Origin: Gammaproteobacteria bacterium
GTDB taxonomy: Bacteria > Pseudomonadota > Gammaproteobacteria > UBA6429 > Thiohalophilaceae
Assembly: GCA_022712915.1 (NCBI GenBank)
Contig: JAFLJQ010000195.1
Coordinates: 1 to 59,921, forward strand
DNA length: 59,921 nucleotides
Direction of reading: 5' to 3'
In this document: positions 4,884 through 29,355 of the stretch, piece by piece
How positions within the stretch are numbered: position 1 is the stretch's first letter
How the letters are laid out: the number at the start of each line of letters is the position of its first letter
Notes under the pieces: generated by a model
The model's input: the letters and a program-made list of their open reading frames with translations, nothing else
The model's database searches: none
What the model was told of the DNA's origin: nothing
Translations under genes and position numbers: made by a program

Positions 4884-6153
4884 TTAAAAACCAGTCCAGG
4901 GATAATTAAAGAACAAAATACTTTGTGAGCCCTCATCCCCCGTCGCAAGTTCTGCCCGAAAGACGATGCCCGAGGACATCACGAGTCGTACACCGATGCC
5001 ATAGGACTCACGCCAGATATCACCCAGTTTGTCTTTTTCATCCGCGACGCTGGCGGTTTCCCAGAAAAAAGAAAGCTGAACACCGGTCCGAATATCCTTG
5101 GCGACACCGATATCGAAGGGTTCAAACTCCTCGGTCAAGTTCCAGCGAATTTCAGTCCCATAGAACAGGACATGTGCGCCTTTATAGCGACCACCGGGAT
5201 AAGATCGCAGACGTGATGTCCCCCCCCATGCTTTCCGCCGTGCCATACCGATTGTGGGCAATCGTATTATTAACCGCTTGTTCACACTGAAGACGTTGCG
5301 GTGCGGTCAGGCCGGGGACAGCACAGTCCAGCCCCATGAGATCTTCTACAGCAGCAAAATCCACCTCCCCCATGCGTGTCACAAAAGCATCGGAACGAAA
5401 GTAATTGAATGCCCAGGTACTGATATGACCAATGGGAATATAGGCCGTCAGGTTATGTTCCTGTTGATAATACTCAGTGGCCCTGGGCGATGTTTCATCC
5501 CGCCACCAGCGTGAAACAGCATACCGCACACCTCGACGAGGATCCTGGTAGTCATCTGTCCAATCGAATTGAAAACCGAGTGTATAATACTGCCCCTTGC
5601 TGGCTTCACTATCACGCGCATCCAGAAGCAGATTCCCCTCTCTGTCACGCAGACTCGTCAGATGCACCTCATTCTTAATGGTCTGTGCCTGGACTTCAAG
5701 CATACGGTCATAAAAGCTACCTTTAAGACGTGCCGACACCGTTTTTACATCATCATATTCAAGAATACTGTGATCGTCCTGATTGGTTTCCATGCCACGG
5801 CCGTTATAACTGATAACCGCCACTTGGCTAAGTCGTGACGCGGTCACTTCGCCAATCAACATCCTGTCTATCAGGTGCATGTCCGTTGCAACCGCACCGA
5901 AACCTTCAATATCACCGCTAACGATAAAACCGGCATAGTCGGTGTAACTGTCGTGTGCATTACTGTCTACTCCCAAAAGTATGACGGCATCCCCTATGCC
6001 AGGATAGCTAATGGGGGTGGGAACGATGTAATGGCCAGGCTCTTTAGAAAACTGATCCCGACGCCGCTCCATGGCGGCGAGATCACTCACTAAGGCAATC
6101 AACAGAAAACAATAAATAATAATAAAATATTGATGCTGTTGTTTATTGTGCAT
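4884..6153 (-). pseudogene. Omp85/BamA-type outer-membrane barrel, copy 1, frameshifted at a G tract
   Basis: Two overlapping frames together make a full copy of the 419-422 residue protein encoded twice more downstream. The 5' frame starts at 6153 with a signal peptide ending near SDLAA and reads MERRRDQF, GRGM, LRDREGNLL and FQFDWTDDYQDPRRGVRY. It then shifts after GTAESMGG and stops early (323 residues). The 3' part, in the other frame from about 5224 to 4884, holds SRLRSYPGGRYKGAH, the barrel signature like the (L/V)RGY of Omp85 proteins, and ends in FFNYPWTGF with the terminal aromatic residue of barrels. The switch falls on eight G on the coding strand (5220-5227); seven would restore the frame exactly. 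It may be a true phase-off state, a dead gene, or an error in a homopolymer. Confidence 0.85.
5220..5227 (-). repeat. Poly-G tract of eight inside outer-membrane barrel gene copy 1
   Basis: The coding strand reads AGCAT then eight G then ACATC. With seven G the protein reads MGGTSRLRSYP, matching copy 2 (MGGPSRLRSYP), which has exactly seven G at 9024-9030. Tracts of this kind within surface-protein genes are classic sites of slipped-strand on/off switching. Confidence 0.8.
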
Positions 6154-6401
6154 TGTCTCTTCCTTCCTTAAAGAAAAATATACTTGCCGCCGTTTTTAAA
6201 AGAATGAAGAGGGTTGTTAATCAAGAGATTGATATGCACTAAATATAAAAGTGAACCTTATTCTTACACTGATATTCACCATTAAATTTTCTTGCTAAAA
6301 ACAACAGAAAGACCATTCAAGGACATACGATAAAGGCACCCTTAAATAAAAAATATTTTTTTTTGAACAACATAAGACATCCCGGTATTGTGCCCCGAAT
6401 T

Positions 6402-6659: not shown

Positions 6660-7073
6660 TTATTTTTTGCCAACGGTCTGTGTTGACTTTGTATTCAAAC
6701 GAACACGGATGTAACCTGGCTTTGGGTATGTGTAACCAGGGAGTTTGACATCCACCCCTAGGCTAAGCACATCGCTGTGATGTTGCCAGGTAACCTGATC
6801 AAAGCTGACCCACTCCTGCCAGGCATAGATATCCCGGTTTAATTTCACCACAAGCTTATCACTGACGACTTGCTGAAACAGATTACCGGCCATACTCACC
6901 TCCGACGTAATGGGCTTACCTGCCGGAAAATGCAGGATAAATTTGCCGTCTTCCGGAACAGCCGCCCCAAACGGCACCACCGGCAGTCCGGCTAACTCCT
7001 GCTGTGTGGGTGGAAAAGCACAACCGACAAGTGAACTACAAAGAAAAAATAACATAAGTACGGGTTTACGCAT
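6660..7073 (-). CDS. Putative lipoprotein sharing a domain with the divergent membrane protein
   Basis: The 137-residue product begins with a lipoprotein signal (MLFFLCSSLVGC), lipobox LVGC with Cys at about 18. The mature part reads FILHFPAGKPITSEVSMAGN and continues through a segment with a conserved Trp. The C-terminal part of the membrane protein encoded divergently from 7201 has the matching IVHFPANTVIPLEVNIKGN followed by a similar layout (a D-V-S/L-N segment, then W-hydrophobic). So the lipoprotein and the periplasmic tail of the membrane protein appear to carry the same unnamed beta-rich domain. Two palindromes lie between the divergent starts and may control both sides. The function is unknown. 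Confidence 0.7.
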   Translation of the reverse strand: MRKPVLMLFFLCSSLVGCAFPPTQQELAGLPVVPFGAAVPEDGKFILHFPAGKPITSEVSMAGNLFQQVVSDKLVVKLNRDIYAWQEWVSFDQVTWQHHSDVLSLGVDVKLPGYTYPKPGYIRVRLNTKSTQTVGKK

Positions 7074-7200: not shown

Positions 7201-8244
7201 ATGCAGGATCACGCGGCCGGTCAAATTGAAGCGATCCATAGTATGCTTGCCACAGGCCACCACAGTGTGCGCCTGGAACGACACAGCCTGATCCTTTGGG
7301 GCTTGACGGCCGCGAGCCTGATCATCTTAATCAATGCCGTGATCACGCCTGAGCGATTTCCAATACAATGGCAACGCTCGCTGTTCTCAAATTCATTTAT
7401 CACGCTGGTTGTTACAACCATAGCCTTTCTGGACTTTCGTCTGACCAAACTAAAACGGGAGTCACGGGATGAAATAGTCTCATTTGTTCAAATCCAGTTA
7501 ACCAAAGTATGGTGGTTCTTGCTTGGGCTGATCATCCTGATCAATATCGGTATGGGTTTCTTTGGCGGTGGTTATCTGTTTTACCCCATCATGATTATTC
7601 TGGTTGGACTTGGTCTTTACATTCAGGGCTTGTTTTCCCAGCAGCTCCTTGCCTGGAATGGCATATTAATGGTGCTCACAGGTCTGGGCAGTATTATCCT
7701 GCAAGCACCGTTACAAACCCTTGAATGGTTTACTGTCGTGATCTTTGGCATGGGTATGCCTGTGCTGGCATGGTTAATTGATCTACCTGCGGTTCAAAAA
7801 CAAATACGATACCGTCTGTTATCCAGTCTTGCCTGGTTGTGTCTGGTCTGCATTCCCACCTGGATGATTAATCAATTGATTTATCAAACCAACATACCGG
7901 ATTGGCCCGTCATTTCCCTACAGAAATACCAACAGCTTCCAACACCCACGCTAGAAAATTATATCGTCCACTTTCCTGCCAATACGGTCATACCCCTTGA
8001 AGTGAATATCAAGGGCAATACCGTTGCAAACACCAGGCCGTCAATAATACCTATGATCATGTCTCAACCGTTTGATGTGTCCGTCAGTAATAGTATCCTC
8101 GATGGTCGATACCGTGTTAATGGCGGTAACTGGATCAAGCCCCGCCAAAAGTATCAAATAATAAATTTTAATCTATCGACACACCTGACCAACAAAGATG
8201 GGCCGAGGATCGCCCTTGATTTCTTTTTAAAAACTGAAGACTAG
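7201..8244 (+). CDS. Polytopic membrane protein with C-terminal periplasmic domain
   Basis: The 347-residue product has about six or seven hydrophobic segments within residues 25-230 (for example LILWGLTAASLIILINAVI and YPIMIILVGLGLYIQGLF). A soluble tail of about 110 residues follows. That tail resembles the mature part of the lipoprotein encoded divergently at 6660-7073 (IVHFPANTVIPLEVNIKGN against FILHFPAGKPITSEVSMAGN). AGGAG about eight bases before the ATG supports the start. The gene is followed after 15 bases by a winged-helix regulator, a pairing known for small membrane proteins with HTH_34-type regulators. No enzymatic motif was seen; a sensing or envelope role is inference only. 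Confidence 0.75.
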   Translation: MQDHAAGQIEAIHSMLATGHHSVRLERHSLILWGLTAASLIILINAVITPERFPIQWQRSLFSNSFITLVVTTIAFLDFRLTKLKRESRDEIVSFVQIQLTKVWWFLLGLIILINIGMGFFGGGYLFYPIMIILVGLGLYIQGLFSQQLLAWNGILMVLTGLGSIILQAPLQTLEWFTVVIFGMGMPVLAWLIDLPAVQKQIRYRLLSSLAWLCLVCIPTWMINQLIYQTNIPDWPVISLQKYQQLPTPTLENYIVHFPANTVIPLEVNIKGNTVANTRPSIIPMIMSQPFDVSVSNSILDGRYRVNGGNWIKPRQKYQIINFNLSTHLTNKDGPRIALDFFLKTED

Positions 8245-8259
8245 CCTGGAAAAGTATTT

Positions 8260-8565
8260 ATGGATGCCATGTCACCCTTTGAACTCGATGTTACTCTGCA
8301 TCAGCCAGTACGGACTCGCATTGTCGCCTTCCTGGTAACAAGGGGTGAAGCAACCTATACCGAATTAAAAAAACAGCTCACCATTACCGATGGCAATCTG
8401 GAATCACACATGAAAAAACTCCTGGCATCCGGCTATCTGCAAAAAGAAAAAAGAACCGGTACATCAAAACGCGTCCAGACCGTTTACAGGCTGACACCAC
8501 TTGGGCATGAGGCCTTTGAAAATTACCTGGAAACCCTCAAGCGAATCCTTTCCGTCAAGATTTGA
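8260..8565 (+). CDS. Winged-helix transcriptional regulator (HTH_34-like)
   Basis: A 101-residue protein that is almost entirely one winged helix: helix 1-2 around PVRTRIVAFLV, TYTELKKQLTITDGNLESHMKKL as helix-turn-recognition helix, then a basic wing KEKRTGTSKRVQTVYRLT and a C-terminal dimer helix. This matches the MarR/ArsR-like 'winged helix DNA-binding' small regulators that usually sit in one operon with a membrane protein, as here. It probably represses its own operon through the twin palindromes at 7138-7181. An ATG three codons in is an alternative start; GGAAAAG before the first ATG favours 8260. Confidence 0.85.
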   Translation: MDAMSPFELDVTLHQPVRTRIVAFLVTRGEATYTELKKQLTITDGNLESHMKKLLASGYLQKEKRTGTSKRVQTVYRLTPLGHEAFENYLETLKRILSVKI

Positions 8566-8687: not shown

Positions 8688-9947
8688 TTAATATCCCAAC
8701 CAGGGATAATTGAAGAACATGACAATGTTTTCACCTTCATCACCCGAGGCCACCTCCATGCGAAAGACAATCCCTGAGGTCATGATCAGGCGCAGACCGA
8801 CGCCATAGGAATCACGCCAGATATCGCCTAACTTGTCTTTTTCATCTGCCACGCTGGCGGTCTCCCAGAAGGCGGATAATTGCACGCCGGTTCGAATATC
8901 CTGGGCAATGCCAATATCAAAGGGGCGGAATTCCTCGGTGATATTCCAGCGAAATTCTGTGCCATAAAACAGTGTATGGGCACCCTTGTAGCGGCCTTCT
9001 GGATAGGATCGCAAACGAGACGGCCCCCCCATGCTCGCGGCCGTACCGTAACGATTATGGGCGATGGTGTTATAAACAGCCTGTTGGCATTGAAGCTGTT
9101 GTGCCCCCGACAAACCACTACAGTCAAGATCCATACGCGCGGCAACCGTGGCAAAATCCGTCTCCCCCACTCGCTCTACATAAGCATCGGAGCGAAAATA
9201 ATTAAATGCCCAGGTGCTAATCCGGCCGATGGGAATATAGGCCGTCAGATTATGTTCCAATTGATAATAGTCTGGCGAACCCGATGTCGATTCATTCCCT
9301 TCCCAACGTGAAATATCATAACGAATCCCTTTACGCGGGTCCTGGTAGTCATCAGTCCAATCAAACTGGAAGCCAAACATCAGATATTGTTGCTCTATCA
9401 TTTCACTATTACGGGTATCACGAATGAGATTACCATCCTTGTCACGTAGTGCTGACATATGCACCTCATGATTGACCATCAAAGCCTGTAGCTCAAACAT
9501 CCTGTTCTGGAATGTTCCCCGGAGACGTGCCGTCGTCGATTCCACATCATCGAGTTCAAAAACATTATAATCATCTTTGTGGTTATCCATGCCGCGCCCG
9601 TTGTAGCTAAAGATGGCCACCTTGTTGAGCTTTTCAAACGCGACTTCGGCTATTAATGTTTTTTCAATCAAATGCATGTCCGTGGCCACGCCACCAAAAC
9701 CTTCAAAGTCCCCACCAAGTACAAACACGGCGTAGTCATTATAGCTATCATGCGCATTGGCATTCACACCAATAGCGGCAAAACCTTCACCAATGCCGGG
9801 GTAACTGATAGGAACAGGAACCAGATAATGCGCGGGTTCTTTCATAAATTGATCTCGTCGGCGCTCCATGGCCTGACCTGGAGATATAAAGACCAATAGC
9901 AAAATGTTAAGTAAAAAAAACAAAAAATATTTTTTTAAAACAGACAT
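8688..9947 (-). CDS. Omp85/BamA-type outer-membrane barrel, copy 2
   Basis: A 419-residue protein of the bacterial surface antigen (D15) barrel type without POTRA domains. After a signal peptide ending SPGQA comes MERRRDQF, then a run of amphipathic strands, FQFDWTDDYQDPRKGIRYD, YIPIGRISTWAFNYFRSDA, the Omp85-like signature SRLRSYPEGRYKGAH near residue 300, and the C-terminal FFNYPWLGY with the aromatic end needed for barrel assembly. I placed the start at the ATG at 9947: it is preceded by AAGGGGAAAG and gives the same length as copy 3, while the frame open back to 10064 lacks signal features. A G tract of seven (9024-9030) keeps the frame open here. It is likely to be inserted in the outer membrane; cargo or activity is unknown. 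Confidence 0.88.
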   Translation of the reverse strand: MSVLKKYFLFFLLNILLLVFISPGQAMERRRDQFMKEPAHYLVPVPISYPGIGEGFAAIGVNANAHDSYNDYAVFVLGGDFEGFGGVATDMHLIEKTLIAEVAFEKLNKVAIFSYNGRGMDNHKDDYNVFELDDVESTTARLRGTFQNRMFELQALMVNHEVHMSALRDKDGNLIRDTRNSEMIEQQYLMFGFQFDWTDDYQDPRKGIRYDISRWEGNESTSGSPDYYQLEHNLTAYIPIGRISTWAFNYFRSDAYVERVGETDFATVAARMDLDCSGLSGAQQLQCQQAVYNTIAHNRYGTAASMGGPSRLRSYPEGRYKGAHTLFYGTEFRWNITEEFRPFDIGIAQDIRTGVQLSAFWETASVADEKDKLGDIWRDSYGVGLRLIMTSGIVFRMEVASGDEGENIVMFFNYPWLGY

Positions 9948-10156: not shown

Positions 10157-11425
10157 TCAAAAGCCTTCCCAGGGATAGCCGACAATGACGGATAACTCCT
10201 CCCCCTCATCCCCCGTCGCAACATCCGCGCGAACAACCAGGCCGGAGGCAGTGACCATTCTCATACCCATGCCATAGGAATCACGCCAGACATCACCCAA
10301 TTGTGCCTTTTCATCTGCCACGGTGGCCGTTTCGTAGAAAAAGGCCAGTTGGATACCGGTACGAATGTCCTTAGCAATACCAATGTCAAAGGGTTTAAAT
10401 TCTTCAGTCAGGTTCCAACGTAATTCTGCACCATAAAATAAGACATGGCCGCCCTTAAAGCGGTCATTGGGATAGGAGCGCAGGCGCTGCCAGCCGCCTA
10501 CACCGCCGACTGTGCCGTACTGATTTTGAGCAATGGTATTATTCACCACCTGATTACAATTATTTGTCTGCTCGGCGGTATACTCTGGATTGCTACAATT
10601 CAGATCAGAGCGGCTTTCGACAGAGGCAAAATCCGTGTCTCCAATACGCGTCACATGAGCATCAGAACGAAAATAATTTAATGCCAGGGTGCTGATTCGA
10701 CCGATGGGTATATAGCCGGTCAGGTTGTGTTCCTGCTGATAAAAATCTGAGGCGTAACTTTCTGCCTCATCGCGCCACCAGCGTGAGAAGTTGTAGCGTA
10801 CACCACGACGGGGATCGAGGTAGTCATCTGTCCAGTCAAACTGAATGGCCGCAGTATAAGATTGATATTTCTGGGTTTCACTATTACTGGTATTCTCAAT
10901 TAGATTACCATCTTTATCACGCAAGCTTGTCATATTTTGTTTGGCCTGCAAGACAGCACCACTTATCTCAAACATGCGATCATCAGAGGTCATCGTCAAA
11001 CGGGCAGCGGCAAATTGATTATCTTTCAACTCCATCAGGCTGTAATCATCCTTGCTGCTTGCCATGCCGCGGCCATTATAATTACGTATACTGACCTTGC
11101 TGATGACCTGTGCATAAACATCCAGAATCAGAGTCCGATCAACTAGGTGCACATCCTTGACAATCGCACCCGCACCTTCGAGATCACCTGCGATGATAAA
11201 GCCGATATAGTCAGTATAGCTGTCATGGACATTGTTCACCGTCCCCGCTAACAGAAACCCCTCGCCTATGCCTGGCAGGCTATAAGGCATGGGAATAACA
11301 TAATGCCCTGGCTCCCTGGAAAATTGATCCCGCCGGCGATCCATGGCATGCACGTCACTCAGCAAGGCAATGAGTAACAAACAATTAATGATGATGAAAT
11401 ATCGATGCTGCCGTTTATAGTGCAT
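10157..11425 (-). CDS. Omp85/BamA-type outer-membrane barrel, copy 3
   Basis: A 422-residue paralogue of copies 1 and 2 with the same plan: a signal peptide ending SDVHA, MDRRRDQFSREPGHYVIP, NYNGRGM, LRDKDGNLIEN, FDWTDDYLDPRRGVRY, QQEHNLTGYIPIGRIS, the signature WQRLRSYPNDRFKGGH, and an aromatic C-terminus (VGYPWEGF). Its signal region (MHYKRQHRYFIIINC) is nearly that of copy 1 (MHNKQQHQYFIIIYC), so 1 and 3 share their 5' ends. It lacks the G tract: the corresponding codons read GGVGGWQ. It is about 200 bases upstream of copy 2 on the same strand, so the two may be transcribed together. Confidence 0.88.
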   Translation of the reverse strand: MHYKRQHRYFIIINCLLLIALLSDVHAMDRRRDQFSREPGHYVIPMPYSLPGIGEGFLLAGTVNNVHDSYTDYIGFIIAGDLEGAGAIVKDVHLVDRTLILDVYAQVISKVSIRNYNGRGMASSKDDYSLMELKDNQFAAARLTMTSDDRMFEISGAVLQAKQNMTSLRDKDGNLIENTSNSETQKYQSYTAAIQFDWTDDYLDPRRGVRYNFSRWWRDEAESYASDFYQQEHNLTGYIPIGRISTLALNYFRSDAHVTRIGDTDFASVESRSDLNCSNPEYTAEQTNNCNQVVNNTIAQNQYGTVGGVGGWQRLRSYPNDRFKGGHVLFYGAELRWNLTEEFKPFDIGIAKDIRTGIQLAFFYETATVADEKAQLGDVWRDSYGMGMRMVTASGLVVRADVATGDEGEELSVIVGYPWEGF

Positions 11426-18298: not shown

Positions 18299-21200
18299 TC
18301 ACCTCATGCTGTTAAGAATTTTAACCATGCGTGGTCGCCACAGATAAATACCACTAACCAACAACATCAAGGGTAAAAGCGGGTCAAACGGTGCATTGGT
18401 TTTAACAGAACAACCACCACCTCCTCCTCCTCCAGCGGCAGGTGCAGGTGCACCGTCGTCGATATCTGTGACATTTACGGTAACGGTACCGGTTTCATTC
18501 AATGAGCCATCACTAGCGCTAACGGTGAGGGTGTAACTTTGCGTGGTTTCATAATCCAGGGCCTGGACCACGGTAACCTGTCCTGTTGTGGCATCCATTG
18601 CAAACCGACCATCCGTGTTACCCGCACTAATACCATAGCTTAGAGCCTCCTCTTCCGGATCTGTCGCAATGACCGTAGTAACCAGGGTGCCAATGCTCAC
18701 ATTTTCCGCGAGGTCAAAACTGCCGATCCCGGCAGTAAAGGAGGGAGGATAATGAACATTTACGGTGACAACACCTACTCCACTCAATAAACCATCACTG
18801 GCACTAACGGTGAGGACATAACTTTGCGCAACACCAGAATCCAGGGCCTGGGCCACGGTGATCTGCCCTGTTGTGGCATGCATCGCAAACAGTTCAGCCG
18901 TGTTGCCGTCGGTAATGACGTAGTCTAACGCCTGCCCTTCCGGGTCTATCGCAAAGACGGTGGTGACCAGGGCGTCAATATCCGCATTCTGGGAAAGAGC
19001 AAAATTACCGACCCCGGAAATAAATAAGGGAGGCTCCTCAATATTCGTGACATTTACTGTGACAGTATCGGTTTCACTCAATGAACCGTCACTGGCTCGG
19101 ACGGTGAGGATATAATTTTTTATATCTTCAAAATCCAGGGCCTGGGCCACAGTAATCTGGCCTGTCACTGCATCTATCGCAAACGGGCCAACCGTATTGC
19201 TGCCATTGCTAAAGTCGTAGCTTGGCGTCATCCCATCCGGGTCTGTCGCAACAACGGTGGTGATCTCCGTGCCGAGGCTCACATTTTCCGCCACATTTTT
19301 CGCAGGGCCAAAAAGGTCGGTCCCTGAAATAAATAAAGGAGAATAGTTAACATCCGTGACATTTACTGTGACAGTAGCGGTTTCACTCAAGTCACCATCA
19401 CTGGCACGGACGGTGAGGGTGTAACCTTGCATGACACCATAATCCAGGGCCTGGGCCACGGTGATCTGGCCTGTCGTAGCATCTATCGCAAACCGGCCAG
19501 CCGCATTGCCGCCAACAATCTCATAGGTTAGCGTCGCCCCTTCCGGGTCTGTCGCAACGACGGTGGTAACCGCCGTGCCTGTGCCCACATCTTCCGCAAC
19601 AACAAAACTGCCAATCCCGGAAGTGAAGAAGGGGGGAACATTGGTATGATTAGCGGCTCGAATGTCGCCATTGTCGGCCCGCGCAGCAAACCGACGCCAT
19701 GGCCCATGCAGAGGATTGACGGGTGGGATACCGCTGACCAATATCGATTCATCGGCATACAGCACTCTGGCCCGCCAGTTGTATAAACCTTCAACACCGG
19801 TGGAAAGGGTTTGGCTTAGCACAACACCCGATGCCCCACTAGCCAATACCCAGTTTATCGGGGTGTCCGTCTGGCAACTAACATCATCAAATGCAACGCC
19901 GGAGGGGCAGTATTCCACCTGCATTTTGACCGCACCACGAGCCGTTGGGTGGGTAGCATTCATGGCAACGGTAAACTGTCCTGCCGCGTAACTCAGCCCC
20001 CAGGTTTGCACCGGGGTAATGGGGCTGTCCTGCTGATATTGTCTGGCCTGTACCAGCCGACCAAGGCTGTTACCATAATAGACAAAGGCCGCCCCTTCAT
20101 CGGCTTCACCATTGTCATAAAGAGAAGCCCCGGCGATGACATCACTGTAACCATCGCCGTTCACATCCCCGGCACCGGCCACGCTGATGCCAAAGTTAGC
20201 AAAGGCCTGATTGGCTTCCAGCAATGTACTGACGGTACTATCAACACCGCCTGCCCTGCCATAGTAGACAAAGGCCGCCCCTTCATCGGTCTCAAGATTA
20301 GTATAAAGATTAGCCCCGACGACGACATCGCTGTAACCATCGCCGTTCACATCCCCGGCTCCGGCTACACTCCAGCCTAGATGGGCACCCTCCTGGTTGC
20401 CTTCCAGCTGTGTGCTGGCGGCAGGATTAATACCGCTGACCGCGGCACCATGGTAGACAAAGGCCGCCCCTTCAGAGGCCTCGCCATTGCTATAGTAGCG
20501 CGCTCCAACGATAACATCACTGTAACCATCGCCGTCCACATCCCCGGCACCGGACACACTGATGCCAAAATTGGCAGAGGCCTGGTTGGATTCTAGCTGT
20601 GTGCTAATGGTCGTGCTAACACCGCCAACCCCACCGTGGTAGACAAAGGCTGCCCCTTCATTGGTTTCACCATTATCATAAAAAGAAGCCCCGACAATGA
20701 CATCACTGTAACCATCACCGTTTACATCCCCGGCTCCGGCCACACTGTGGCCAAACAATGCAGTCCCCTGATTGACCTCCAACAGCGTATTCACGGTGGC
20801 ACGGAGGCCACCCAGTCCGCCGTGGTAAACAAAGGCCGCGCCTTCATAGGCCTCTCCGTTGTCATACGCATAAGCACCAACAATGACATCGCTGTAACCA
20901 TCGCCGTTCACATCCCCGGCACCGGCCACACTGATACCAAAATTAGCAAAGGCCTGGTTCGATTCTAGCTGTGCGCTAATGGTCGTGCTAACACCGCCAG
21001 CCCCGCCATGGTAAACAAAGGCAGCCCCTTCTTTGGCCTGATCATTATCATAAAAAGGTGCCCCAACAATGACATCACTGTAACCATCGCCGTTCACGTC
21101 CCCGGCCCCGGACACACTGCTGCCAAATTTCGCACGGCCCTGATTGGCCTCCAGCAATGTACTGGCGGTCATGCTGAGGCCACTGGCCCCACCGTGGTAG

Positions 21201-23500
21201 ACAAAGGCCACCCCTTCACCGTCCTGACCATTATCATATTCATGTGCCCCGACGATAACATCGCTGTAACCATCGCCGTTCACATCCCCGGCCCCGGACA
21301 CACTGATACCAAAATTGGCAGAGGCCTGGTTGGCCTCCAGCAATGTACTGGCGGTGAGACTAGTACCACTGGCCCCACCGTGGTAAACAAAGGCTGCCCC
21401 TTCATCAGTCTCAATAACATCACTCTCATAAAGAGAAGCCCCGACGATGACATCACTGTAACCATCGCCGTTCACATCCCCGGCTCCGGCCACACTAATG
21501 CCAAAATTGGCATTGGCCAGGTTGGATTCTAGCTGTGCGCTAATGGTCGTGCTAACACCGCCAGCCCCGCCGTGGTAAACAAAGGCCGCCCCTTCATCAG
21601 TCTCACTAACATCACTCTCATAAAGAGAAGCCCCAACAATGACATCACTGTAACCATCGCCGTTCACATCCCCGGCACCGGACACACTGATGCCAAAATT
21701 GGCAGAGGCTAGGTTGGATTCTAGCTGTGTGCCAATGGTCGTGCTAACACCACCAGCCCCACCGTGATAGACAAAGGCCGCCCCTTCATCGGCTTCACCA
21801 TTGTCATAAAGAGAAGCCCCGACGATAACATCACTATACCCATCACCGTTCACATCCCCGGCTCCGACCACACTGATGCCAAAATTGGCAGAGGCCTGGT
21901 TGGATTCTAGCTGTGTGCTGGCGGCAGGATTAATACCACTGACCGCGGCGCCATAATAGACAAAGGCCGCCCCTTCATTGGCTTCACCATTGCTATAAAG
22001 AGAAGCCCCAACGATAACATCACTGTGACCATCGTCATTCACATCCCCGGCTCCGGACACACTGATGCCAAAATTGGCATTGGCCAGGTCAGCCTCCAGC
22101 AGTGTACTGACGGCACTATCAACACCGCCTACACCACCATAGTAGACAAAGGCCGCCCCTTCATCGGGCTGACCATTGTCATAAAGAGAAGCCCCGACGA
22201 TGACATCACTGTAACCATCGCCGTTCACATCCCCTGCCCCGGACACACTGATGCCAAAATTGGCAGAGATCTGGTTGGATTCTAGCTGTGTGCTGACGGC
22301 ACTATCAACACCGCCTACGCCACCATAGTAGACAAAGGCCGCCCCTTCTTCGGCTTCACCATTGCCATAAAGAGAAGCCCCGACGATAACATCACTATAT
22401 CCATCACCGTTCACATCCCCGACACCGGCCACACTGATGCCAAAATTGGCAGAGGCCTGGTTGGATTCTAGCTGTGTGAAGATACCGCTGATACCACTGA
22501 TCCCGCCGTGGTAGACAAAGGCCGCCCCTTCATCGGGCTGACCATTGTCATAAAGAGAAGCCCCGACAATGACATCACTATACCCATCACCGTTCACATC
22601 CCCGGCCCCGGCCACACTGATGCCCAGATTGGCGTTTTCCTGGTTGGATTCTAACATTCCATCCCCAACCCCGGTTAGCAACGGGTCAACGGTCAAGGGC
22701 CAACTAGCCTGGTGATCATTTATGCTGAGCAGGATGTAATTATTCTTAACACCCATATGCGCCTCAACGGTTTGACCCTCTGCATCGATGACCTTTAAGG
22801 CCTTATAATCGAGTATTCGACCCGTATCAGTTTTTAATTGGATGACATCATTTGAAGCGGTCCTGGCCTGGGCTCCCCGCAGTGCAATCGCAAGTTTCAG
22901 TTGTCCTTTACCCTGAGGGCGTTGATGCAGGGTAAAACCATGCTCAAGCCCCTTGGCGCTGTTGTCATACCACTCACTGATGATATCTCCATCATAGACG
23001 TAGGTTACCCTGTTGCCTTGATGTTGTGGCTTGCTGGGTTTGATCTGTTGCACTGCTTCACCCCGGCCATAACTCGACAGTTGCATACCTAGCAACAAGG
23101 GCTCACCCTTGGCTGTGCGGTCATGCACCTGAATCCCCTGTTCGGTGTAATAAATACGCAGGTTATGCGCCCGGTTCGGGCTTTGCAGCCCCGTGCCATT
23201 GTGACTCGCCTGATATTCACGTTCGGCCAGTTCTTTTTGTGCCTTGCTCAACCAGCTACCGTCCGCATCCACTACAGGCGTTGCCGGCAGTGTTGGTGCA
23301 AGTGCCATACCAATATTGGGGGAGCGTTTAATCTTTTCGTCGATCACCGGCCTGTCTGTTATCGACTCAGAGGCATAGACCGGTTGCAGGCCAATAATCA
23401 GCAACGCCAGGGGGAAAAATAAAGACAACAACAGCCTGTCAAACCATGACCACTGACAATGACTGAAATCCCGGGGTGCGTTGAATAATGACTGATGCAT
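18299..23500 (-). CDS. Giant secreted FG-GAP/cadherin repeat protein 1 with C-terminal anchor
   Basis: A 1733-residue surface or secreted protein. A long signal region (residues 1-43, ending PVYAS) is followed by an N-terminal domain (about 60-270) shared with the protein at 25963-29355. Next come 14 FG-GAP repeats of about 62 residues (275-1145), each with LE(S/A)NQ, FGISVAGAGDVNGDGYSDV and EGAAFVYHG; the D-N-G-D-G-x-x-D loops should bind calcium as in integrin-alpha propellers. After a linker come four cadherin-like repeats (about 1285-1675, ATDPEG, TGQITVAQALD, TVNVTD). The end is Gly-rich, then a Cys, NAPFDPLLPLMLLVSGIYLW and a basic tail, a sorting/anchor signal resembling the JDVT-CTERM type. 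GGAG seven bases before the ATG at 23500 decides the start over one 26 codons upstream. Confidence 0.9.
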   Translation of the reverse strand: MHQSLFNAPRDFSHCQWSWFDRLLLSLFFPLALLIIGLQPVYASESITDRPVIDEKIKRSPNIGMALAPTLPATPVVDADGSWLSKAQKELAEREYQASHNGTGLQSPNRAHNLRIYYTEQGIQVHDRTAKGEPLLLGMQLSSYGRGEAVQQIKPSKPQHQGNRVTYVYDGDIISEWYDNSAKGLEHGFTLHQRPQGKGQLKLAIALRGAQARTASNDVIQLKTDTGRILDYKALKVIDAEGQTVEAHMGVKNNYILLSINDHQASWPLTVDPLLTGVGDGMLESNQENANLGISVAGAGDVNGDGYSDVIVGASLYDNGQPDEGAAFVYHGGISGISGIFTQLESNQASANFGISVAGVGDVNGDGYSDVIVGASLYGNGEAEEGAAFVYYGGVGGVDSAVSTQLESNQISANFGISVSGAGDVNGDGYSDVIVGASLYDNGQPDEGAAFVYYGGVGGVDSAVSTLLEADLANANFGISVSGAGDVNDDGHSDVIVGASLYSNGEANEGAAFVYYGAAVSGINPAASTQLESNQASANFGISVVGAGDVNGDGYSDVIVGASLYDNGEADEGAAFVYHGGAGGVSTTIGTQLESNLASANFGISVSGAGDVNGDGYSDVIVGASLYESDVSETDEGAAFVYHGGAGGVSTTISAQLESNLANANFGISVAGAGDVNGDGYSDVIVGASLYESDVIETDEGAAFVYHGGASGTSLTASTLLEANQASANFGISVSGAGDVNGDGYSDVIVGAHEYDNGQDGEGVAFVYHGGASGLSMTASTLLEANQGRAKFGSSVSGAGDVNGDGYSDVIVGAPFYDNDQAKEGAAFVYHGGAGGVSTTISAQLESNQAFANFGISVAGAGDVNGDGYSDVIVGAYAYDNGEAYEGAAFVYHGGLGGLRATVNTLLEVNQGTALFGHSVAGAGDVNGDGYSDVIVGASFYDNGETNEGAAFVYHGGVGGVSTTISTQLESNQASANFGISVSGAGDVDGDGYSDVIVGARYYSNGEASEGAAFVYHGAAVSGINPAASTQLEGNQEGAHLGWSVAGAGDVNGDGYSDVVVGANLYTNLETDEGAAFVYYGRAGGVDSTVSTLLEANQAFANFGISVAGAGDVNGDGYSDVIAGASLYDNGEADEGAAFVYYGNSLGRLVQARQYQQDSPITPVQTWGLSYAAGQFTVAMNATHPTARGAVKMQVEYCPSGVAFDDVSCQTDTPINWVLASGASGVVLSQTLSTGVEGLYNWRARVLYADESILVSGIPPVNPLHGPWRRFAARADNGDIRAANHTNVPPFFTSGIGSFVVAEDVGTGTAVTTVVATDPEGATLTYEIVGGNAAGRFAIDATTGQITVAQALDYGVMQGYTLTVRASDGDLSETATVTVNVTDVNYSPLFISGTDLFGPAKNVAENVSLGTEITTVVATDPDGMTPSYDFSNGSNTVGPFAIDAVTGQITVAQALDFEDIKNYILTVRASDGSLSETDTVTVNVTNIEEPPLFISGVGNFALSQNADIDALVTTVFAIDPEGQALDYVITDGNTAELFAMHATTGQITVAQALDSGVAQSYVLTVSASDGLLSGVGVVTVNVHYPPSFTAGIGSFDLAENVSIGTLVTTVIATDPEEEALSYGISAGNTDGRFAMDATTGQVTVVQALDYETTQSYTLTVSASDGSLNETGTVTVNVTDIDDGAPAPAAGGGGGGGCSVKTNAPFDPLLPLMLLVSGIYLWRPRMVKILNSMR

Positions 23501-23699
23501 GACAATCTCCATATTATGATAGATAATTTTTTGCCATGGTAACAAAAAAATGCTTACCATGAGAAGAACCAAAACCAAACGAAGTTACAAATAACCGACA
23601 TATTCGAGCAAAAATGAATATGGCAGATTTTAACTCGAAGTACATAACCACCGAAACTGCAGTTACAGCCGGTGTTCCGCCATTAATTCTACGAATATT

Positions 23700-25962: not shown

Positions 25963-28900
25963 TTACCCTCGACGGCGACGCAGGAGATAAAACAACCCCA
26001 GACTCAGCATTACAGGTAACGTGGGATCAAACACCGCGTGTTGGTTAAGTGTACAACCGCCTCCACCTCCAGAGCCCAACTGATCCTCCGGGGTATCAAT
26101 TACATTCGTAATGGCAATCGTTACCACGCCCTCATCACTGAGTGCTCCATCATTAGCACTGACTGTCAGGCTGTAGTGTTTAATGCTTTCATAATCCAGC
26201 CCGGTGGCCACCGTGATAACGCCTGTGCCACTATCAATGGCAAAATGCCCGGCACTATTACCCAGAGTGATACTATAAACAGGTAATGTGCCATCCACAT
26301 CCGAGGCCACTATCGTGGCGACCGCCGTGCCCACAGCAACACCCTCAGCCAGGCTATAACCACCCGTACCAGTCTCAATCACCGGGGCATCATTCAAAAA
26401 GTTGGTCAGGCGAATATCGGCATTATTGGCATGGGCCGCCAGCCGACGCCAGGGGCTATGGGCAGGATTGGCCGGCGAGACGATACCGGCTTTAAGCACC
26501 CCCTCACGGGCTATCAGTATGCGCGCCCGCCATTGATAAAGCCCTTCGACTTGCTTGCTGATCGTCTGTGACAAGCTGCTACCCGCATCACCATATACCA
26601 GTCTCCAGGCTTCCTGAGTGTCCAGAATGCAACTCGCATCCCCAAAGGGCACAGCATTGGGGCAACTTTCCACCTGTAGCTTGACCGCCCCCCGACCCAG
26701 AGGGTGAGTAGCATGCAGACTCACGGTAAACTGCCCGGCAGCATAACTCCCGCCTAACAAGGCAACAGGGGCAATCGTCGTATTCTGCCGATATTGCCGT
26801 GCCTGAACCAGGCGACCATCACTGTTTCCGTGGTAGATGAAGGCCGCCCCTTCATTGTCCTCACCATTGTCATAGCGATCAGCGCCCACAATCACATCGC
26901 TGTAACCATCGCCGTTCACATCCCCTGCACTGGCCACGCTATTTCCAAAAGAAGCATAAACCTGATTAGACTCCAGTTGGACACTGGCGATCATGGCCAG
27001 CCCACCGGCACTGCCGTGGTAGACAAAGGCCGCCCCTCCATGACTATAACCAAGCGCCCCCACAATCACATCGCTATAACCATCGCCATTTACATCCCCG
27101 GCACTGGCCACGCTACTGCCAAACAAAGCACCGGCCTGGTTGGACGCCAGTTGGGTACTCACCGTCATGGCCAGCCCTCCAGCACTGCCGTGATAGACAA
27201 AGGCCGCCCCTTCACTGCCCTCGCCATTCCCATAGTATCTAGCCCCCACCACCACATCGCTATAACCATCGCCGTTCACATCCCCGGCACTGGCCACGCT
27301 AACGCCAAACTCAGCATAGGGCTGGTTGGACTCCAGTTTAGTACTAGCCGTCGTGGCCAACCCACCGGCACCGCCGTGGTAAACAAAGGCCTTTTCATAG
27401 GCCTCGCCGCCAGCTCCCACCACCACATCGCTGTAGCTATCGCCATTCACATCCCCGGCACTGGCCACGCTCCAACCAAAATTGGCATAGGCCTGGTTAG
27501 ACTCCAATTGGGCGCTCATGGTCGTGGCCAGCCCACTGGCACTGCCGTGATAAATAAAGGCCGCCCCTTCAGCAGCCTGGCCATTACTATAGGCATTAGC
27601 CCCCACAATCACATCGCTGTAGCCATCGCCGTTCACATCCCCGGCACTGGCCACACTAAAGCCAAGCACAGCACCAGCCTGATTGGACTCCAGTTGGACA
27701 CTGGCGGTCATGGCCACCCCCCCGGCACCACCGTAGTAGACAAAGGCGGCCCCTTCATCAGTCTCGTCATTGTCATAGCGGAAAGCTCCCACAATCACAT
27801 CGCTATAACCATCGCCGTTCACGTCTCCGGCACTGGCCACGCTACGGCCAAAATAAGCATCAATCTGATTAGACTCCAGTTGGACACTAGCGATCGTGGC
27901 CAGCCCACTGGCACCACCGTGATAGACAAAGGCCGCCCCTTCATTGGACTCACCATTGTCATAGCCAGAAGCCCCCACCACCACATCGCTATAACCATCG
28001 CCGTTTACATCACCGGCACTGGCCACGCTAGCGCCAAAAGAAGCGTCGACCCGATTAGACTCCAGTTGAGTACTCGCCGTCATGACCAGCCCACCGGCAC
28101 CACCGTGGTAGACAAAGGCAGCTCCACCCTCGCCATAGAAATAAGCCCCCACCACCACATCACTATAACCATCGCCATTTACATCACCGGCACTGGCTAC
28201 GCTAGTGCCAAAAGAAGCGCCGACCTGATTAGACTCCAGTTGGACACTAGCGGTTATGGCCAGCCCACCGGCACCACCATGATAGATAAAGGCCGCCCCT
28301 TCATTGTCCTCGCCATTAGCATAGCCAAAAGACCCCACGATCACATCACTATAACCATCGCCGTTCACATCACCGGCACTGGCCACACTAAAGCCAAAAT
28401 AGGCATTGGTCAGGTTGGACTCCAGTTGGACACTCGCCGTCGTGGGCAGCCCACCGGTACTGCCGTGGTAGACAAAGGCCGCCCCTTCATTGGTCGCGCC
28501 ATTGTCATAGAGACGAGCCCCCACCACCACATCGCTATAACCATCGCCGTTCACATCACCGGCACTGGCCACGCTAATGCCAAACTCAGCGCTGGCCTGG
28601 TTACTTTCCAGAAGCGTGTCAGTGCTAGAAGTCAACAAGGGGTCGACCAATAAGGGCCATTCGGCCTCATCATCATTGATCGTCAGTTTAATTTGCTTGC
28701 CCTGTCCACTCATACGGGCTGGTACAGGTTTGCCCCTGGCATCAAACACTTTGAGGGCGTCATACTGAAGTTGGCGGCCCGTGGCCGTGGTCAGGCGGAT
28801 AGACCCGGCATCCCCGCCACTGGTTGTCGCCCCGTCCAGGCGGATCACCAGTTGCACCTCACCCTTGCCCCTGAGTTTATTATGCAAGAGGAAACCGTGT

Positions 28901-29355
28901 TCCAAGCCTTTGGCACCATTGTCATACCATTCGGTAATCGAAGAGTTATAGCGATATTCGATTTGCCTGTCCTTTTGGACCGGCTGCGTAGGATTAATAG
29001 TCTTGAGCTGTTTTTCCCGGCCATAGTGACTGAGGCGCATATTTAACAACAGAGGCTCGTCTTTAGTTGTACGGTCATGCACCTGAATACCCTGCTCGGT
29101 ATAATAAATCCGCAGATTGTGCGCCCGGTTGGGGCTTTGTAGGCCTTTGTGGTTAATGCTAGGTAGATATTCTTTTTCAGCAAGGTCTTTTTTGACCTTC
29201 GCCAGCCAGTTGTTATCTGTATCCGTAGTAGCAATACTTTGCGGTGCCTTGTCTGCCACAGTCACCTGAACCGCCGCCTGAACAGACGCCATCACGCTCA
29301 TTAAAAATACAACAGAGAAAATAACGCACCAAATTCTATTTGCAATCCTACACAT
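25963..29355 (-). CDS. Giant secreted FG-GAP/cadherin repeat protein 2 with C-terminal anchor
   Basis: An 1130-residue paralogue of the protein at 18299-23500. The signal peptide ends near SVQAA (residue 28). The shared N-terminal domain (about 45-235) has GLQSPNRAHNLRIYYTEQG and EWYDNGAKGLEHGF nearly identical in both. Ten FG-GAP repeats (240-845) follow, each with FGxSVASAGDVNGDGYSDV; repeats 3, 7 and 9 are shortened. A linker domain and one cadherin-like repeat (about 990-1085) precede the tail GGGGGCTLNQHAVFDPTLP, a hydrophobic helix and RRRRG. This tail fits the JDVT-CTERM type of anchor, in which an intramembrane protease is thought to process the protein. AAAGGAGA before the ATG supports the start. 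It lies 134 bases after the kinase gene on the same strand. Confidence 0.9.
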   Translation of the reverse strand: MCRIANRIWCVIFSVVFLMSVMASVQAAVQVTVADKAPQSIATTDTDNNWLAKVKKDLAEKEYLPSINHKGLQSPNRAHNLRIYYTEQGIQVHDRTTKDEPLLLNMRLSHYGREKQLKTINPTQPVQKDRQIEYRYNSSITEWYDNGAKGLEHGFLLHNKLRGKGEVQLVIRLDGATTSGGDAGSIRLTTATGRQLQYDALKVFDARGKPVPARMSGQGKQIKLTINDDEAEWPLLVDPLLTSSTDTLLESNQASAEFGISVASAGDVNGDGYSDVVVGARLYDNGATNEGAAFVYHGSTGGLPTTASVQLESNLTNAYFGFSVASAGDVNGDGYSDVIVGSFGYANGEDNEGAAFIYHGGAGGLAITASVQLESNQVGASFGTSVASAGDVNGDGYSDVVVGAYFYGEGGAAFVYHGGAGGLVMTASTQLESNRVDASFGASVASAGDVNGDGYSDVVVGASGYDNGESNEGAAFVYHGGASGLATIASVQLESNQIDAYFGRSVASAGDVNGDGYSDVIVGAFRYDNDETDEGAAFVYYGGAGGVAMTASVQLESNQAGAVLGFSVASAGDVNGDGYSDVIVGANAYSNGQAAEGAAFIYHGSASGLATTMSAQLESNQAYANFGWSVASAGDVNGDSYSDVVVGAGGEAYEKAFVYHGGAGGLATTASTKLESNQPYAEFGVSVASAGDVNGDGYSDVVVGARYYGNGEGSEGAAFVYHGSAGGLAMTVSTQLASNQAGALFGSSVASAGDVNGDGYSDVIVGALGYSHGGAAFVYHGSAGGLAMIASVQLESNQVYASFGNSVASAGDVNGDGYSDVIVGADRYDNGEDNEGAAFIYHGNSDGRLVQARQYRQNTTIAPVALLGGSYAAGQFTVSLHATHPLGRGAVKLQVESCPNAVPFGDASCILDTQEAWRLVYGDAGSSLSQTISKQVEGLYQWRARILIAREGVLKAGIVSPANPAHSPWRRLAAHANNADIRLTNFLNDAPVIETGTGGYSLAEGVAVGTAVATIVASDVDGTLPVYSITLGNSAGHFAIDSGTGVITVATGLDYESIKHYSLTVSANDGALSDEGVVTIAITNVIDTPEDQLGSGGGGGCTLNQHAVFDPTLPVMLSLGLFYLLRRRRG

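Follow-up and report, generated by a model that had tools for sequence, protein, structure and literature searches.

The barrel gene that we call copy 1, on the minus strand of the 59,921-base contig analysed here in its entirety (the window), is out of frame exactly at a run of eight G, with sound coding sequence on both sides of the break, and it is probably a dispensable member of a multi-copy family that was recently put out of frame by a one-base slippage. The window comes from a draft genome of 4.24 Mb in 274 contigs, 97.8% complete with 0.14% contamination. A sequence-only reading of this DNA had proposed a phase-variable switch, a claim that was left unsupported by our comparisons, in which the tract is not conserved at its site and appears to derive from an invariant Gly-Gly pair.

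The frame break in copy 1 and its surroundings

The features that concern copy 1 and its two neighboring paralogs are listed here by window position.

4884..6153, minus strand: copy 1, frame-broken gene of a predicted POTRA-less Omp85-type barrel, homologous before and after the break to copies 2 and 3
5182..6153, minus strand: 323-residue reading frame at the 5' end of copy 1, with ~311 homologous residues followed by ~12 out of frame
4884..5219, minus strand: 3' piece of copy 1, continuing in the other frame for 111 residues up to the natural stop, predicted barrel strands 12-16
5220..5227, minus strand: G8 tract at the frame change, on the Gly-Gly codons before the loop-6 motif
6154..6175, minus strand: leader of copy 1 with a purine-rich putative ribosome-binding site (AAGGAAGGAAGAGACA), as read from the letters
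8688..9947, minus strand: copy 2, intact, Omp85 (Pfam PF01103), 419 residues
9024..9030, minus strand: in-frame G7 at the same codons of copy 2 (C7 on the plus strand)
10157..11425, minus strand: copy 3, intact, 422 residues, with mixed Gly codons and no tract
8260..8565, plus strand: HTH_34 winged-helix regulator, located between copies 1 and 2, possibly acting locally

Read directly, positions 5220-5227 of the plus strand are C8, which on the minus strand gives an internal ATG codon followed by seven further G. The first frame of copy 1 reaches a stop at 5182 after 323 residues, and an overlapping minus-strand frame (4884-5285) continues the protein (GGTSRLRSYP...NYPWTGF) uninterrupted to its natural stop. 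The sequence-only reading had placed the frame change at the eight G, and the homologous frame does switch there; its location and lengths were also correct, as copy 1 comprises 1270 nt and copy 3 comprises 1269 nt, a difference of 1 nt. Likewise, copy 2 is open and has seven G at the same codons, one fewer than copy 1. The coincidence of the tract, which lies 73% into the gene, with the frame change is real, and the G tract per se is ordinary. The further proposal that slippage caused the shift we judge probable, and the rest of copy 1 is sound on both sides of the break.

The relatives of this genome are uncultured Gammaproteobacteria, including a sister species of the same genus (G001). Between copies 1 and 2, the plus strand at 7201-8565 encodes a membrane protein of no known family beside the HTH_34 winged-helix regulator, a pair that is conserved in the sister species, and the lipoprotein gene adjoining copy 1 (6660-7073) is absent at the sister locus. 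Farther along the minus strand are two large proteins (18299-23578 and 25963-29355) that end in a JDVT-CTERM sorting signal, scoring above the cut-off of NCBIfam NF033191; FG-GAP repeats and a cadherin domain are present in the protein of 25963-29355, and that of 18299-23578 is similar in appearance. A plasmid search gave no match. Beyond the window, the genome holds an intact barrel homolog on contig C6 and a more distant one on C261. A single-protein scan of the genome contigs gave no match; an alignment-based scan did. Another paralog of the barrel family is decayed, with several frame breaks, one of them at a T8 run (G000:C113:1073-2287, L025).

The barrel family and the source of the G run

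The identification of copy 1 as an outer-membrane barrel gene was borne out, with the Omp85 superfamily as the family concerned. Pfam PF01103 (Omp85) matches copy 2 with 26.6 bits (cut-off 24, E 5e-6) and copy 3 with 20.4 bits, just under the cut-off, and the NCBIfam Omp85_fam model gave E-values of 5e-12 and 2e-14, yet with scores far under its 200-bit cut-off. The predicted model of copy 2, generated from 11 homologs, has 16 strands and a mean pLDDT of 79, and Foldseek with this model retrieved TamA and BamA barrels at E ~1e-10 but with a TM of only ~0.5. Unlike the fold search, a PDB sequence search returned no real match. The model leaves no room for a POTRA domain, as the signal peptide is followed by strand 1 at residue 39; this excludes BamA, TamA, and TpsB proper but not the Omp85 superfamily. 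The genes are, as modeled, POTRA-less 16-strand barrels of the Omp85 type.

Loop 6 of the Omp85 superfamily carries a VRGY/F motif (PMC4890855), and at the corresponding place the present family mostly has GG-x-x-RLRSY, with RLRGY in a few relatives. In the predicted model, the break of copy 1 falls between strands 11 and 12, which is the long loop 6, so that strands 12-16 would be removed. A survey of the superfamily described members that lack an N-terminal extension, termed "noNterm" (PMC4104836). Our barrels resemble these in being of the Omp85 type and in having no N-terminal POTRA extension, and differ from them in a loop 6 that mostly reads LRSY or LRAY, in a few cases LRGY, and not VRGY/F.

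The glycines at the tract, Gly307-Gly308 in copy 2 numbering, are invariant in an 11-sequence alignment, and in copy 1 both are written GGG directly after ATG. The G run would thus exist because the protein needs Gly-Gly before the loop-6 motif and both codons happen to be GGG after ATG. Across 78 related loci from several phyla, the Gly-Gly codons are mostly mixed. At the 73 of these loci where our pattern recognised the motif, a comparison made between species, G runs at the site reach at most 2-3 in 61 loci, 4-6 in 10, and 7 in two (both in frame), and G8 occurs in none. Comparing related genomes for seven, eight, or nine G had been suggested as a check on the switch, and the result does not favor one; with 2-6 G in 71 of the 73, conservation of the tract as a sign of a switch is rejected. 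Within the barrel family of the genus, the run is present only in copies 1 and 2, and the sister species' copy-2 ortholog reads ATGGGTGGACCG at the site, with the tract interrupted. These alignments point to a chance local choice of codons, at a motif that the protein cannot do without, as the origin of the run. The suggestion that copy 2 may switch too found no support either, its G7 being in frame and two distant relatives also having an unbroken G7 there.

Age of the break and fate of copy 1 in the sister species

The two pieces of copy 1 were each compared separately, with no mended gene built. The gene retains 59 of the 60 residues invariant in 27 relatives (30/31 + 29/29), and neither piece contains a second lesion or further stop. 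Its dN/dS is ~0.08-0.19 where dS is unsaturated, a rough guide only, as dS is saturated in many comparisons. In a tree of the 5' piece, the copy 1 branch measures 0.26 vs. 0.19 for copy 2 and 0.25 for the sister-species sequence G001a, i.e., there is no acceleration. With the residues kept, no other stops, and no acceleration of the branch, the break should be recent or reversible, and copy 1 would be either newly broken or switchable. A long-dead gene is rejected on the same retained residues and the lack of another lesion.

The same tree has copy 1 branching off before copy 2 and G001a, with support of 100/99. That copy 1 splits first implies that it was already present in the common ancestor of the two species and that the sister lost it. 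At the sister locus, there is merely a ~130 bp C-terminal barrel relic with stops (G001 L018:11638-11775), which adjoins the intact copy-2 ortholog; it scores equally against copy 1 and G001a, which assigns it to the copy 1/2 clade without settling its exact parent. The relic is probably what remains of the sister's copy 1. Only five of the 36 other genomes searched in the family have any barrel homolog, and loss or patchy presence seems to be frequent in these barrels.

A spare copy newly broken by slippage is favored because copy 1 was lost in the sister species and the paralog on C113 is ruined, and because a switch is suggested by the tract alone. Copy 1 would be one of several copies of a POTRA-less barrel of the Omp85 type with 16 strands, a small family in which the Gly-Gly requirement (GGG GGG after ATG) ahead of the loop-6 motif would give rise to a G run, and a one-base replication slippage within that run would have put the gene out of frame. 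With translation stopping at 323 residues, strands 12-16 including the C-terminal strand would be missing, and the truncated product should form no barrel. As copy 2, copy 3, and the C6 paralog are intact, the loss is probably tolerated through redundancy, and copy 1 is probably being lost, a fate that it has already met in the sister species. The slip is mutationally reversible in principle, and no feature indicates selected reversal.

Switching, assembly error, and G tracts across the genome

The contingency gene put forward by the sequence-only reading, in which slipped-strand mispairing would make copy 1 yield either the complete barrel or a truncated protein, the off state being the one assembled, we consider unlikely. 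In its favor, copy 1 encodes a surface protein, contains a G tract, is undamaged elsewhere, and shows the constraint of its family to either side of the tract; its reading frame includes a homopolymer at which a single base makes the off state, and the absent second lesion, contrary to our preferred reading, also fits a switch that is now off. However, the tract is missing in almost every relative and in the sister's copy-2 ortholog, it lies 73% into the gene, and copy 1 was lost in the sister species. Its length is borderline against published thresholds: G/C tracts of at least 8 are often variable in Neisseria (PMC5084427), a cut-off of at least 9 G has been used for phase-variable tracts in Neisseria phasomes (PMC5953494), which places G8 at the low edge and under that cut-off, and in Bordetella G/C tracts longer than 8 exceed chance, with one C6 tract known to vary (PMC1891110).

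Copy 1 is like the poly-G genes of Neisseria and Campylobacter, such as the hemoglobin receptors hmbR and hpuAB (PMC3786947), in being a surface protein gene with a G run within its coding sequence, truncated by a length change of one base. The tracts of those genes vary within species and typically have at least 9 G; here, the length is 8, the tract is not conserved between species, and no switching is seen, with one genome per species. The Campylobacter capC autotransporters, for which decay was inferred in place of poly-G switching (PMC7168839), are also a surface-protein family with a poly-G tract and lineage-specific decay rather than phase variation, but the capC tract lies upstream of the gene and its decay is advanced, whereas copy 1 has one lesion.

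Nor does the genome show an excess of G tracts. In the window, 7-G positions number 6 against 9.5 expected, and G8 is found at 110 positions of the genome (some 70 tracts), against ~46-130 expected from Markov models of order 1-3 fitted to the window. With the count inside this range, tract enrichment as the sign of a phasome is rejected; among relatives, the G8 frequency runs from ~1 to >30 positions per Mb. We examined 62 tracts, in the stretches around 60 of them and the two in the window, taken from 100 of the 110 G8 positions. About 34 of the 62 G8+ tracts are inside intact genes, many others fall between genes, and four coincide with candidate frame breaks. Tracts as long or longer occur in housekeeping genes, including an unbroken G10 and an unbroken C10 in genes that, from their protein sequences, we take to be mnmG and valS, respectively, which also speaks against phase variation of copy 1.

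The four candidate breaks are copy 1, a G8 in an integrase-like gene with a weak Integrase_1 match (G000:C58:2359-2366, L116), a G8 in a gene for which 35 relatives have no homolog (G000:C227:11533-11540, L158), and a C9 where one gene of a four-copy family changes frame, as in copy 1 (G000:C148:20642-20650, L138, L175). The family of the C148 gene shares its N-terminal region and has variable C-terminal parts, and its paralogs on C31, C65 (C7), and C168 (C6) are open. Candidate breaks at coding G8+ tracts (4 of ~38) are commoner than at random coding positions (75/3847), A/T runs of at least 7 (1 of ~69), or G6-7 runs (2/31), as called by a classifier with fixed length limits whose random background includes overlapping neighboring genes. 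This surplus, with the C148 tract in a multi-copy family, runs contrary to our preferred reading and lends something to phase variation, and it is what slippage would give, selected or not.

A homopolymer sequencing or assembly error over a truly intact gene is quite unlikely. Homopolymers are the usual site of such errors, and copy 1 has one break in an otherwise perfect gene; however, in the stretches of this genome that were read, ~68 A/T runs of at least 7 and ~34 G/C runs of at least 8 are open, so the assembly is not visibly error-prone there. The sole break at an A/T run of at least 7 is in the already decayed C113 gene, and a homopolymer-prone assembly is rejected for want of any sign. 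Very unlikely is the broader proposal of a G/C-tract contingency set comprising the barrel, the C148 member, and others, in which slippage at the loop-6 Gly-Gly would switch a POTRA-less Omp85 barrel. RNA polymerase slippage on the G run, by which a minority of in-frame mRNA would yield some full barrel from the broken gene, is possible in principle on G8 and would suit the conserved 3' piece, but it is hardly credible, as an out-of-frame tract of this kind is kept in none of the relatives and a recent break already accounts for the 3' conservation.

If copy 1 were a true switch after all, homopolymer phase variation would extend to Omp85-type barrels in an uncultured environmental lineage. 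On the reading that we prefer, of a spare copy recently broken by slippage, the gene carries a caution, namely that the G run found at a frameshift can have arisen as a by-product of an invariant Gly-Gly, in a family that gains and loses copies.
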